Source of the DNA: an uncultured Gammaproteobacteria bacterium
GTDB lineage: Bacteria; Pseudomonadota; Gammaproteobacteria; Cardiobacteriales; CAKMZF01
Reading direction: 5' to 3'
Length of the DNA stretch: 37,115 nt
Assembly (NCBI GenBank): GCA_929200405.1
Contig: CAKMZF010000005.1
Span: 1 to 37,115, forward strand
Positions 15,089-34,220 of this stretch are shown here, piece after piece. Numbering within the stretch: the first letter of the stretch is position 1; each line of letters begins with the position of its first letter. The notes beneath the pieces are model-generated. The model was not told the DNA's origin, searched no databases, and was given only the letters and a program-made list of their open reading frames with translations. The position numbers and the translations under genes are program-made.

Positions 15089-15164
15089 GTCCCCTTCGTC
15101 TAGAGGCCTAGGACACCGCCCTTTCACGGCGGTAACAGGGGTTCGAATCCCCTAGGGGACGCCA
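15089..15164 (+). tRNA. tRNA-Glu (TTC anticodon), CCA encoded
   Basis: GTCCCCTTCGTCTAGAGGCCTAGGACACCGCCCTTTCACGGCGGTAACAGGGGTTCGAATCCCCTAGGGGACGCCA, cloverleaf-compatible. Confidence 0.98.
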
Positions 15165-15392: not shown

Positions 15393-15468
15393 GTCCCCTT
15401 CGTCTAGAGGCCTAGGACACCGCCCTTTCACGGCGGTAACAGGGGTTCGAATCCCCTAGGGGACGCCA
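15393..15468 (+). tRNA. tRNA-Glu (TTC anticodon), CCA encoded, second copy
   Basis: Sequence identical to 15089-15164. Confidence 0.98.
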
Positions 15469-17592: not shown

Positions 17593-19452
17593 ATGCAAAC
17601 CCACTTTCAATCTCAAAACTCAGGATCGAAGAAATACACCGAGCATGATGCCCGTGCCAAGAATATTAATGAGGCGACCTCCCGCTTAGATGCTCTGCGT
17701 ACACTTATCAAAGCGCAAGGTTATTCCGGCTATATCTTACCGAGAAGTGATGAATTTCAAGGTGAATATGTCCCCGCGCATGCAATGCGACTCGCTTGGT
17801 TGACAGGCTTTACTGGCTCAGCCGGTTTTGTTTTTATTACCCTCGATAAAGCCACTCTGTTTGTAGATGGCCGCTATACTTTACAAGTTACCCAGCAAAC
17901 AGAAAGTACGCTCTATGACTATGATGTCTTGGATTATCAGCAATTGGCAACAGCTATTAACCAACAACTTTCGGCAACTGACAAGCTAGGTTTTGATCCT
18001 TCATTGTGGACAAGGAAACAGCTACAAGCAATTCAGCAACAAACCGCAAGTGAAATTACTTGGCAGCCAACAGAGAAAGTCTTGATCGATGAGATTTGGA
18101 GTGATGCACCTGCTAAACCTTCTGGAAAACCATACTCTCTCTCTCTTAAATACGCTGGGGTAAATTTCACCAATAAGATACAGCAGACGCTTTATTTACT
18201 GCCTAAAGCAGTAGAGCTGTATTTTGTCAGTAAACCCGAAGATTTATGCTGGCTGCTAAATGTCAGAGGAAATGATGTTGCCTGTACGCCTTTTGTGCTC
18301 TCGACATTGCTAATCCATAGAAATGGCAGCATCAGCTGGTTTATAAAACCTGAGCGAGTCGATGACGATTTGAAACAACGTCTTGGTGATAATATCCAGA
18401 TTTATCACCCTTCAGCACTGGAATCTGTCATCAAGAATACTATCTCCTCGACTGACATCAATAATGCTGGACTCACATTGGCGACTGATTTCTCTCAAAC
18501 CAGTGAACAACACTTACGACTATTCGAATCACTGATAACAACGATAGATTATGCCAATCCCATTAGTGATCTCAAATCCATTAAGAATATTACCGAACAA
18601 GCTGGCAGCCGCGCGGCACACCAGCGTGATGGTATTGCGATGGTAAAATTTTTACATTGGCTAGAAACCTCAGCACTGCAAGAAGGTGCTCACGAGTTAG
18701 ATTTAGACCAAAAACTATTGAACTTACGCGGCGAGAGTGATCTATTTAGGGACGTTAGCTTTGACAGTATTACCGGATCTGGCCCGCATGGCGCCATCGT
18801 TCACTACCGAGTAACAGAAGAGAGTAACCGTAAGTTGCAACCCAATGAGATTGTTCTGGTTGACTCCGGTGGTCAATACCCAGATGGCACAACTGACATC
18901 ACCAGAACAGTTATCCTTGGCACAGCAACTACAGAGCAAAAAAAGCGCTTTACGCAAGTGCTTAAAGGCCATATACAGTTAGCACTGGCAAAATTCCCCG
19001 CTGGGATTACGGGCGCTCACTTAGATATTCTCGCCCGTGCCGCCCTGTGGAAAGATGGCGAGGATTTCGATCACGGTACAGGTCATGGTGTAGGCAGCTT
19101 TCTTTCTGTCCATGAGGGACCACAAAGCATTTCTCGGCGTAGCAATGTCCCCCTTAAAGCGGGTATGATTGTCTCTAATGAGCCAGGCTTTTACAAAAAT
19201 GACGAATATGGTATTCGCATTGAAAATCTGGTGCTGATTATCAATGCGGAAACTAACGGTAGTCGAGATATGATGGCCTTTGAAACCCTTACTTTAGCGC
19301 CTATTCAGCAAGATTTAATTGACAAGTCTATGCTTACTATCGATGAGATCACATGGCTTAATCGATATCATCAAACTGTCTATGACACCTTGTACAGTCA
19401 GCTACCTGCAGATACTCAATTATGGCTAAAGGCTGCAACTCTTGCCCTTTAA
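17593..19452 (+). CDS. Xaa-Pro aminopeptidase (M24B family, creatinase N-terminal domain)
   Basis: GYILPRSDEFQGEYVP, VDSGGQYPDGTTDITRT, HGTGHGVGSFLSVHEGPQ, NEPGFYKNDEYGIRIEN. Confidence 0.92.
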   Translation: MQTHFQSQNSGSKKYTEHDARAKNINEATSRLDALRTLIKAQGYSGYILPRSDEFQGEYVPAHAMRLAWLTGFTGSAGFVFITLDKATLFVDGRYTLQVTQQTESTLYDYDVLDYQQLATAINQQLSATDKLGFDPSLWTRKQLQAIQQQTASEITWQPTEKVLIDEIWSDAPAKPSGKPYSLSLKYAGVNFTNKIQQTLYLLPKAVELYFVSKPEDLCWLLNVRGNDVACTPFVLSTLLIHRNGSISWFIKPERVDDDLKQRLGDNIQIYHPSALESVIKNTISSTDINNAGLTLATDFSQTSEQHLRLFESLITTIDYANPISDLKSIKNITEQAGSRAAHQRDGIAMVKFLHWLETSALQEGAHELDLDQKLLNLRGESDLFRDVSFDSITGSGPHGAIVHYRVTEESNRKLQPNEIVLVDSGGQYPDGTTDITRTVILGTATTEQKKRFTQVLKGHIQLALAKFPAGITGAHLDILARAALWKDGEDFDHGTGHGVGSFLSVHEGPQSISRRSNVPLKAGMIVSNEPGFYKNDEYGIRIENLVLIINAETNGSRDMMAFETLTLAPIQQDLIDKSMLTIDEITWLNRYHQTVYDTLYSQLPADTQLWLKAATLAL

Positions 19453-29995: not shown

Positions 29996-30574
29996 TTAGT
30001 AGTCTCTTCTACCTGAGAAAGCCTGAGACAAAGTGCTACTATCAACAAACTCAAGCTCTCCTCCCATCGGAACACCATGAGCAATTCGCGTAGTCTTCAC
30101 GCCCTGAGACTTGGCTAATTCGGACAAATAATGCGCTGTAGCCTCACCCTCAACGGTAGTATTTGTCGCCAAAATAAGCTCTGTGATATTCTCATCCTCC
30201 AGCCTTTTGACCAACAAAGGAATACCCAGCTCTTCTGGGCCAATTCCATCGATAGGCGATAGCTTACCTCGCAAAACAAAATACCGACCTTTAAAAATAC
30301 TGACTTGTTCAACTACCGCCATATCAGCAGCAGACTCTACAATGCACAGCACCGTCGCATCCCGAGATTGACTTTGGCATATATCACATTGAGTCTGCTC
30401 TGCTAAACCCCGACAGATCTCACAGCTTCCTATACGCTCTAATGCCTGATCTATGGCTTGCGCAATCTGCTTCGCCCCAGTTCTATCGTGTTGGATAAGC
30501 TGCAATGCCATTCTTTGTGCGCTCTTAGGTCCTACACCCGGCAGTTTCCTCAGGATGTCAATAAGCGTATTCAT
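29996..30574 (-). CDS. recR: Recombination protein RecR; start trimmed to 30574 (MNTLIDILRKLPGVG)
   Basis: LPGVGPKSAQRMALQL, zinc motif CEICRGLAEQTQCDIC, Toprim CIVESAADMAV. Confidence 0.95.
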   Translation of the reverse strand: MNTLIDILRKLPGVGPKSAQRMALQLIQHDRTGAKQIAQAIDQALERIGSCEICRGLAEQTQCDICQSQSRDATVLCIVESAADMAVVEQVSIFKGRYFVLRGKLSPIDGIGPEELGIPLLVKRLEDENITELILATNTTVEGEATAHYLSELAKSQGVKTTRIAHGVPMGGELEFVDSSTLSQAFSGRRDY

Positions 30575-30612
30575 GGCAGGTGGAAAGATCACAATAGCAG
30601 CCTTGTAAGTAA

Positions 30613-30936
30613 TTAGAAAGGAAGATTCATGCCCGGAATATTCGGCAGGTTTAGTCCAGATGTGATCTCAGACATTTTCTCCGCACTGGTGTCGCTAGCT
30701 TTACGTGAAGCATTGTTAAATGCAGCGGCCACTAGATCCCCTAGCATCTCAAGATCATCAACCAAAGACTCATCAATTTTGACACCCTTCACTTGGTGTT
30801 TACAGGTCATCGTCACCTCGACCAAGCCACCACCAGACTCTCCGGTTACTTGGACATTCGCCAAATCGTCCTGAGCCTGCTTCATCTTCTCTTGCATTTC
30901 TTGGGCTTGTTTCATCATATTTCCGAGACCGCGCAT
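30613..30936 (-). CDS. ybaB: YbaB/EbfC family nucleoid-associated protein
   Basis: [37 protein letters not shown]; recR-ybaB-dnaX synteny. Confidence 0.93.
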
Positions 30937-30997: not shown

Positions 30998-33712
30998 TTA
31001 GTCGTCTGCTTTAGGTAAAATCTTCACTTGATTAGGGTCTAATGTCACCCCAAACTCTGATTCAATCTGTTGAATATTGGGATCTTTTCTTAATCCATCA
31101 AGAGCACTCTCTTGATGTTGTTGCTGTTTTTTCTGAACAATCTCAGCAGGGGTTTGCAATGCTTTTTTAGCGCGTTCTTCTGCTGTAGCAACAGTAATTT
31201 CTAGCTGAATGTCTGCACCATATAACAGCCCAAGTGCACGAAGAATTGCTTTCTCTGCCATATCAGTATGCAAAGTATCCACCTCTGCACTTAAGATAAG
31301 ACTGAGTTTCTTCTTCAATGCATCATAATCAAAGAATGCACAGTTGGCAGCTAAACTCTGAGCAAAACCGGGCACAGGTAATCCTGCTGAAATCGCCGCC
31401 CAGTTTTCTTTGCTAAGCTCCATCGACACGCTATCTACACCTGTTGAGTTATGCATGGTAGTTTGTGGCTGCGCCGCAGTAGTTTGCGTGGCAACAGTCG
31501 CTGCACTATTAGCTGTCACTTGCTGTTGATCTATGTTCTCATTCGCCGCTATATCTGCAAAAGATTGCATGGGCGCTGGCGCTGTATCTATAATAGGCTC
31601 AGAAATTTCTATAGATTGCCCCTGCTCAGAACGCATTTCATCACTGTCATCAGAACGTTGTGATGATTCTGATATTGATGCAGATAATAGTGATGAAGGT
31701 GGTGAAAAGTCATTATCATCAATAACAGCAACTACTTCGCTATGATTCCGCTCAGTGCTTTGCAACGCGGTACTCACCGCTTGTGCTTGACTCGGCTCAT
31801 CAAAACCGACCTCAATATCCGCTTCCGAGAAAATCTTATTAGCGCCGGAATGATGGTCATTCGTTAAGGTCTGAACGGAGGCCGGAATTTCCATTTCCAA
31901 ATCACTCACATCAACTGAACCTACACCAGTCCAACGTATCTTTGGTTTAGGTTTTTTAGGCACATTTGCTTCTGCTGTACTTGTTGGCGCTATTTGCGTT
32001 TTTTTCTCAGTCGTAGTTTCTGTTATCCCAAAGCCTTCAGGCGGTTGTCTTTTAACGCCTATTTCCTCAGAAATTGATTCAGCTTGTGTAATATGAACTG
32101 GCTCCCCTGCTGTTTGAAGTTGTTCATCGTTGCTAGGTGCAAAATTACTCGTTTCAACTGATGTGATATTATTGTTGATAACATCACTAACCGATTCTGC
32201 TACAGCCGGCATATCAACCCGATTCTCTAACACGGCAGTCCCTGCTTCTGCATCATCTGCACTATCCGTCACCTCCCAAGGTGGTGACTGCTCTGTGGCA
32301 TTCTCTGCTGTTTCACCATGAGCTTGATCCCGAGGTACTTGCTCATCATCACTGAGCTTATTAAGCTCAATATCAGCCGACCCCACAGCTGGGGAATCTG
32401 TTGCTGTTATTACTAATTGAGACCGTTCTTGCGACTCAGGTGCCTGTTCGATTGAACTGTTAACTCTGTTGTCTGCACTTTCCTCTGTAGCTTGTGCCTC
32501 TGCTACAGTAGCCTTTTTTTGACTTCCCGCATCACCAGCAGAGGAAGTATCTATGCGCTGTTGCATAGCAATAGTCTGCGCCTTGGTGGCATTATCCCAA
32601 TCCAGCGCAGCACGCTCAATAATCGTAGGCTTAAATGCCAACAAACGAACCCATGTCATTTGAAATCCAAGAAATGGCGTTGGCGCATAGGGCTGGTCTT
32701 TTCGCGCCTGCAAAATTATTTGATACCAAATTTGCAAATCTTCAGAAGAGACATTTCGCAAAGCCGTCACGCACTCTTTGCCGAGCTGAATTAAGATTGG
32801 CGAAACTGGTGAGCGCTCAAATTGCAATACTGCCGTCGATTGCACCACCTCAAGCATATCGACCAGTACCGTGTCAAAATTTAGCGACCGCGATTCTGCC
32901 AACGCCAATTTTGAGAATAGCAAATCAACATCTTGATTGATTAATGCCAGAAACATTTCTGCTAATAAATTATGCGATACTGTGCCTAACATTTCGGTAA
33001 CAGTTGCCAACTCCACTTGTCCCTGACCAAAAGCAATACCTTGGTCTAATAGGGTTAAAGCATCACGCATACTTCCGCGTGCAGCTTGGGCTATGCGGTC
33101 TAGCGCTCGCTCATCAAAAGCAATCTCTTCCTGAGTTAATATACTTTGCATACGCTCCGCAATCATTTGCTGCGGAATTATTCGCAAACTAAACTGTAAA
33201 CAACGCGAAAGAACCGTAATGGGGAGTTTCTGGGGGTCTGTAGTCGCTAAAATGAATTTAACGTGCGGTGGTGGCTCTTCCAATGTTTTCAGCAACGCAT
33301 TAAAACTACTGGTTGAGAGCATATGCACTTCATCTATCAGATAGATTTTGTAACGGCCTCGGCTGGGCAGATAATTGGCATTCTCTAATAGTTCTAATGT
33401 GTCTTCAACACGAGTTCTCGAGGCAGCATCTACCTCTATAAGATCAGGAAAGCGACCTTCTTGGATATCTGTACATGAGCTACAGGTATTACAGGGATTT
33501 GCACTAACTCCGTTGGTATCGCAGTTCAATGATTTAGCAAAAAGTCTTGCCAAGGTGGTTTTTCCAACACCTCTGGTGCCAGTAAATAAAATCGCTGAGT
33601 GTAAATGACCGCTACTTAGTTGAAACGTTAACGGTTGTAGGACATGTGCTTGCCCAACGACATCATCAAATTTTTGGGGACGCCATTTTCTGGCCAGTAC
33701 TTGATAGGTCAT
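30998..33712 (-). CDS. dnaX: DNA polymerase III subunits tau/gamma; true start 33712 (MTYQVLARKWRP), not 33886
   Basis: MTYQVLARKWRPQKFDDVVGQAHV, GTRGVGKTT, zinc module CDTNGVSANPCNTCSSC, IDEVHMLS; the ORF-track extension upstream runs through the SRP RNA. Confidence 0.95.
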   Translation of the reverse strand: MTYQVLARKWRPQKFDDVVGQAHVLQPLTFQLSSGHLHSAILFTGTRGVGKTTLARLFAKSLNCDTNGVSANPCNTCSSCTDIQEGRFPDLIEVDAASRTRVEDTLELLENANYLPSRGRYKIYLIDEVHMLSTSSFNALLKTLEEPPPHVKFILATTDPQKLPITVLSRCLQFSLRIIPQQMIAERMQSILTQEEIAFDERALDRIAQAARGSMRDALTLLDQGIAFGQGQVELATVTEMLGTVSHNLLAEMFLALINQDVDLLFSKLALAESRSLNFDTVLVDMLEVVQSTAVLQFERSPVSPILIQLGKECVTALRNVSSEDLQIWYQIILQARKDQPYAPTPFLGFQMTWVRLLAFKPTIIERAALDWDNATKAQTIAMQQRIDTSSAGDAGSQKKATVAEAQATEESADNRVNSSIEQAPESQERSQLVITATDSPAVGSADIELNKLSDDEQVPRDQAHGETAENATEQSPPWEVTDSADDAEAGTAVLENRVDMPAVAESVSDVINNNITSVETSNFAPSNDEQLQTAGEPVHITQAESISEEIGVKRQPPEGFGITETTTEKKTQIAPTSTAEANVPKKPKPKIRWTGVGSVDVSDLEMEIPASVQTLTNDHHSGANKIFSEADIEVGFDEPSQAQAVSTALQSTERNHSEVVAVIDDNDFSPPSSLLSASISESSQRSDDSDEMRSEQGQSIEISEPIIDTAPAPMQSFADIAANENIDQQQVTANSAATVATQTTAAQPQTTMHNSTGVDSVSMELSKENWAAISAGLPVPGFAQSLAANCAFFDYDALKKKLSLILSAEVDTLHTDMAEKAILRALGLLYGADIQLEITVATAEERAKKALQTPAEIVQKKQQQHQESALDGLRKDPNIQQIESEFGVTLDPNQVKILPKADD
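32460..32521 (-). promoter_or_regulatory. Candidate programmed -1 frameshift site in dnaX
   Basis: Zero-frame CAA AAA AAG (codons 398-400), 4-nt spacer, stem CTGTAGC / GCTACAG with 10-nt loop; -1 frame stops at TAA after 17 codons. Confidence 0.7.
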
Positions 33713-33772: not shown

Positions 33773-33884
<112 letters not shown>

Positions 33885-34220
33885 ATACTGATACCGAAAC
33901 GGAATTACTAAACCATTTCGCCATACAAGCCGCATATTCTATCCTCTCTTTTTCAAAATTGCACCTGCTGCCAAAGAAAAACCTTAGATAATCATTAGAA
34001 ATATTCGCCATTTTTATGCGAGACCAAGTAAGGCATTGACTTCCCGACACTTTATGAGACAAGCTGAATTTTCAGGTTTCCCCTATTGATATGCCGCAGA
34101 GCTCAATAACTAGAATTATCATGCCATTTTACGCGTAGCTTTAAAATATCAGCTAAAATGTCATCAATCTACAGACATCTTAACGCCATTAAACCAAACC
34201 TAGATCATTGAGCTATATTT

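Follow-up and report, generated by a model that had tools for sequence, protein, structure and literature searches.

The window analysed here, the whole stretch of 37,115 nucleotides, carries on its minus strand a dnaX gene (30998–33712) that starts with ATG and encodes a full-length tau protein of 904 amino acids. The gene was identified from its open frame, from TIGR02397, which it matches 407 bits over the cut-off, and from E. coli tau, the best solved-structure match of its product. Clamp-loader domains I–III comprise residues 1–363 (32624–33712, minus strand): the Pfam delta2, lid and gamma3 matches run to residue 359 and E. coli gamma aligns with residues 1–363. The alpha-binding domain V of tau comprises residues 766–894 (31031–31417, minus strand; Pfam PF12170, E = 5.8e-16) and is separated from domain III by a very long linker of about 400 residues and low complexity. 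The protein is unusually diverged, with a terminal branch of 2.11 changes per site in the DnaX tree. A bacterial small SRP RNA (33785–33877, minus strand) lies directly upstream of dnaX, and a 962-residue ORF starting at 33886 reads through this RNA and is an artefact; ybaB (30613–30936) and recR (29996–30592) lie downstream. Elsewhere in the window, two tRNA-Glu(UUC) genes of equal Rfam score (15089–15161 and 15393–15465, plus strand) are found about 300 bases apart.

Codons 398–400 of dnaX read CAA AAA AAG on the minus strand and hold the slippery heptamer A_AAA_AAG in the zero frame (32513–32519), inside a run of seven A (A7; 32514–32520). The register is that of the E. coli dnaX site, and the heptamer occurs in frame only once in the gene. 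A −1 slip would add 17 residues, GYCSRGTSYRGKCRQQS, before a TAA stop (32460–32462; tail and stop together 32460–32513, minus strand) and would yield a product of 417 amino acids versus 904 for the full-length protein. The +1 frame ends at a TAG (32503–32505, minus strand) two codons past the site, so that both shifted frames close near A7, as random frames also soon do. A −1 stop immediately past the site, a typical but non-defining feature of such sites, is absent, the stop lying 17 codons away instead. An Rfam scan detected no known frameshift element in this dnaX. Since domain III ends at residues 359–363 and domain V occupies residues 766–894, the short product would consist of the clamp-loader domains, which both predicted products share, and would lack the alpha-binding domain found only in the full-length product; this architecture fits a gamma/tau pair. 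The first-pass annotation had already named the heptamer, its frame and its position, and these are exact by sequence and translation. Translation likewise reproduces its short product of about 417 residues ending at TAA, and the gamma-like length that it noted (417 versus about 431 residues for E. coli gamma) is matched by the domains.

The heptamer is flanked on both sides by candidate stimulatory elements. Upstream, at 11 nt, lies the Shine–Dalgarno (SD)-like sequence GGTGAT (32531–32536, minus strand), whose predicted duplex with the anti-SD has an energy of −8.9 kcal/mol, a strength equalled at 3.3% of the linker positions of this gene (p = 0.034). Its distance falls within the spacing of 8–11 nt reported to stimulate −1 frameshifting (PMC6321510), and the SD profile peaks 9–10 nt upstream of the heptamer. 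Because the pairing partner of GGTGAT is the 5′ portion of the anti-SD, the element sits, in the register of the ribosome, a few nucleotides farther out than AGGAGG would; the 3′ end of 16S rRNA was searched for in the window's metagenome-assembled genome (MAG) and was not found. The first-pass annotation had credited the site with a weak SD only, a judgement that overlooked the strong GGTGAT. The GGGA that it proposed was set aside, being weak and 5 nt from the heptamer. Downstream, the annotated 7-bp stem is present as described: after a 4-nt spacer (32512–32509), the arms CTGTAGC (32508–32502) and GCTACAG (32491–32485) enclose a 10-nt loop (stem-loop 32485–32508, minus strand). The fold reaches −10.3 kcal/mol across 36 nt, and an equally good fold is found at 5–6% of dnaX positions (p about 0.05). 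In E. coli-type sites a stem-loop is expected to begin 5–8 nt downstream; here the stem, effectively of 6–7 bp, spans nucleotides 5–11 downstream and is placed like those of other sites but is short and only modestly significant; the E. coli dnaX stem has 11 bp, and an HIV stem cut to 6 bp causes weaker pausing (PMC8861025).

How far these elements exceed chance was estimated by rewriting the same protein synonymously with the codon usage of the window. The heptamer arises at codons 398–400 in 13.6% of such recodings, with about 0.8 A_AAA_AAG heptamers expected per gene, and a hairpin of equal strength arises in 13%; heptamer and hairpin alone are thus only mildly unusual. An SD and a stem of the observed strength coincide at 0.4% of the linker positions. 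One other in-frame A_AAA_AAG exists in the window, again as CAA AAA AAG, at codon 449 of the gene at 17593–19452 (plus strand), and has neither SD nor stem. This gene, which probably encodes an M24-type aminopeptidase, served as an internal control, and the bare state of its heptamer speaks for the dnaX site.

The genus and the family of the window are each represented by a single species among the genomes compared, and the best DnaX identity in the order and the class is 56–57%. In the absence of close relatives, 217 gammaproteobacterial dnaX genes were compared instead, comprising 80 named genes, those from the order of the window and a class-wide sample; expected counts for the linker after domain III were obtained by recoding each gene with its own codon usage. 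In-frame A_AAA_AAG was seen 47 times versus 12.7 expected, a 3.7-fold enrichment; many of the species are related, and neither this count nor those that follow is made up of independent events. Of the 47 sites, 24 have a −1 stop after a single codon (1.6 expected). Tails of at least nine codons beside an A-run shorter than nine, as in the window, number five against about six expected in all, which is the background level. Long A-runs form a second enriched group: A9 was seen 31 times versus 9.5 expected and A10 seven times versus 2.4, whereas A8 is not enriched (11 versus 14.5); A9 is nearly absent from the DNA flanking dnaX. Exactly nine or ten A soon after domain III, with stops near in both shifted frames and neither SD nor stem in excess, occur at 36 of the 217 loci, for example L012, L015, L023, L087, L120–L126, L128–L130, L132, L143, L145, L150, L173, L182, L198 and L240. 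Sites of the Thermus type, in which RNA polymerase slips on the A-run of dnaX (PMC5009743; PMC1088944), therefore look common among gammaproteobacterial dnaX genes.

The two groups also differ in their flanks. An upstream SD within the best 10% of its own gene accompanies 17 of the 23 A6–A7 sites of A_AAA_AAG with a short tail and 12 of the 15 with a longer tail, the window among the latter, and stems are found at 12 of 23 and 5 of 15, respectively. SD and stem occur together in 14 of the 38 A6–A7 sites, again including the window, versus none of nine A9/A10-G sites. Averaged over the short-tail A6/A7 class, the SD profile has its peak 7–10 nt upstream, and over the A9 sites it is flat at background level; stems in the A6/A7 class begin at about nucleotides 6–11 downstream, and neither SD nor stem is in excess at A9/A10 sites in the 217-gene comparison. 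These patterns fit a division in which the A6/A7-G class would use ribosomal frameshifting and the A9/A10 class RNA polymerase slippage as in Thermus. With its A7-G, its SD (p = 0.034) and its stem (p about 0.05), the site of the window falls with the ribosomal class. An earlier census separating the two classes was not found in the open-licence literature. The comparison also lends support to the idea that selection favours a short form of DnaX.

Several explanations of the site were weighed against one another. The heptamer could be a product of chance, the codons for QKK having arisen in an A-rich, disordered linker beside a fortuitous hairpin and an SD-like GGT GAT; any slippage would then be basal, a few percent at most, and functionless. 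The ease with which recoding yields the heptamer (13.6%) and the hairpin (13%) speaks for this explanation, as do the long −1 tail, which belongs to the class found at background frequency, and the second heptamer of the window, which lacks stimulators. Against it stand the class-typical placement of both SD and stem, jointly so rare in the linker, and the strong enrichment of heptamers across dnaX linkers, and we regard chance as unlikely, although it is the rival that carries the most weight. RNA polymerase slippage on A7, which the first-pass annotation had mentioned as a further option, would let normal translation of mRNAs that had gained or lost an A produce the short form. It draws some strength from the A9/A10 runs after domain III in the same order, some of them in the same S-QKK context, and from the closure of both shifted frames, at 17 and 2 codons. 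However, slippage-type dnaX sites are A9/A10 runs, with at least nine A at the junction and A8 unenriched, whereas the window has A7 only; in many genomes, avoidance of such runs begins only at about 9 nt (PMC1088944); and the A9 sites lack the SD and the stem that the window has. A substantial contribution of transcriptional slippage is thus unlikely, and as the explanation of the site it is very improbable. Equally improbable is proteolysis of tau as the source of any short form of DnaX, with the heptamer irrelevant. Caulobacter crescentus provides a precedent (PMC5009743) and the linker of the window is long and low in complexity, but nothing in the sequence points to proteolysis and the arrangement of SD, heptamer and stem would be left unexplained.

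We therefore consider that the dnaX of the window probably carries a programmed −1 ribosomal frameshift site of the E. coli type, a prediction made from sequence. The corresponding proposal of the first-pass annotation gains support beyond what that annotation could offer: heptamer, internal SD and stem all lie where A6/A7-type sites of the 217 genes typically have them. It is weakened by the atypical 17-codon tail and the short stem. A tail of 12 codons is found at the Pseudoalteromonas site L039 together with an SD and a stem like those of its relatives whose tail is one codon long, so that the long tail of the window lowers, but does not exclude, the frameshift claim. In the mechanism that we propose, AAA and AAG would occupy the P and A sites, both read by tRNA-Lys(UUU), while GGTGAT would form a duplex with the 16S anti-SD; this duplex and the stem downstream, which would hold the ribosome, would together put it under strain. 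Both tRNA-Lys molecules would slip back by one base to pair with AAA AAA, and translation would stop 17 codons on to give a 417-residue, gamma-like clamp-loader subunit (domains I–III) beside tau. We infer that frameshifting occurs, at some efficiency, and that the short product may enter the clamp loader; the parts of the site, their positions, the domain layout and the comparative pattern are observed directly. Where tRNA-Lys(UUU) is present without a CUU isoacceptor, AAG slips readily (PMC5009743). tRNA-Lys(UUU) is the sole tRNA-Lys found in the genome of the window, and a pattern search of that genome did not find tRNA-Lys(CUU), which may have been overlooked since the MAG is 91.5% complete.

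The predicted site shares with E. coli dnaX the A_AAA_AAG register, an internal SD upstream, a candidate stem-loop downstream, a location after domain III and a gamma-sized product. The two differ in that the −1 frame of E. coli stops after one codon rather than 17, its run is A6 rather than A7, its stem of 11 bp is longer than the 7-bp stem with 4-nt spacer of the window, and its SD is AGGGAG rather than GGTGAT, which lies in a different register; frameshifting at the window site is, moreover, a prediction. The sites of Pseudoalteromonas L039, L041 and L044 resemble that of the window in having A7-G, a GGTGA-type SD and a stem of about 6–8 bp starting 3–6 nt past the heptamer, to which L039 adds its long −1 tail. 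They are themselves predicted, lie near codons 617–636 rather than 398 and, in L041 and L044, have a −1 stop after one codon, unlike the window. The A9 of Thermus thermophilus and the A9/A10 sites of the same order would lead to the same outcome as the site of the window, with an A-run at the gamma/tau junction and both frames stopped; they differ from it in that the run of T. thermophilus is A9 rather than A7 and that the SD and stem of the window are foreign to slippage sites.

Within the order, the A_AAA_AAG form is found in one of 27 relatives, and two genera, in every one of their 11 genomes, have A9/A10 runs just after domain III, as do two others. The gamma/tau switch may have alternated repeatedly in Gammaproteobacteria between RNA polymerase slippage on A9/A10 and frameshifting on A6/A7-G with SD and stem, the S-QKK-A site of the window having been converted recently from an A9 ancestor when a synonymous substitution turned AAA into AAG. 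We hold this scenario to be speculative and rather doubtful. Such a conversion would account for the still-distant −1 stop; the DnaX of the window cannot be placed in the tree owing to its very long branch, so that the tree does not establish whether its A7 and the A9 runs of the order are homologous.

The site is likely a further example of the known E. coli mechanism rather than a new one, and adds a likely gamma-producing dnaX from a deeply diverged gammaproteobacterial lineage. The two dnaX recoding classes, SD and stem with A6/A7-G versus bare A9/A10, are separable by sequence, which makes it testable how often the ribosome and how often RNA polymerase provides the route to the same protein. 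Among the genes compared, L089, which is filed as Chryseobacterium sp. 18061, groups inside Enterobacteriaceae in the tree and is probably contamination or a mislabelled contig. The dnaX genes of Shewanella L020, L033 and L036 have an A9 run (at about codons 398–423) and a separate A_AAA_AAG (codons 639–700), and look as if two recoding sites coexisted in them.
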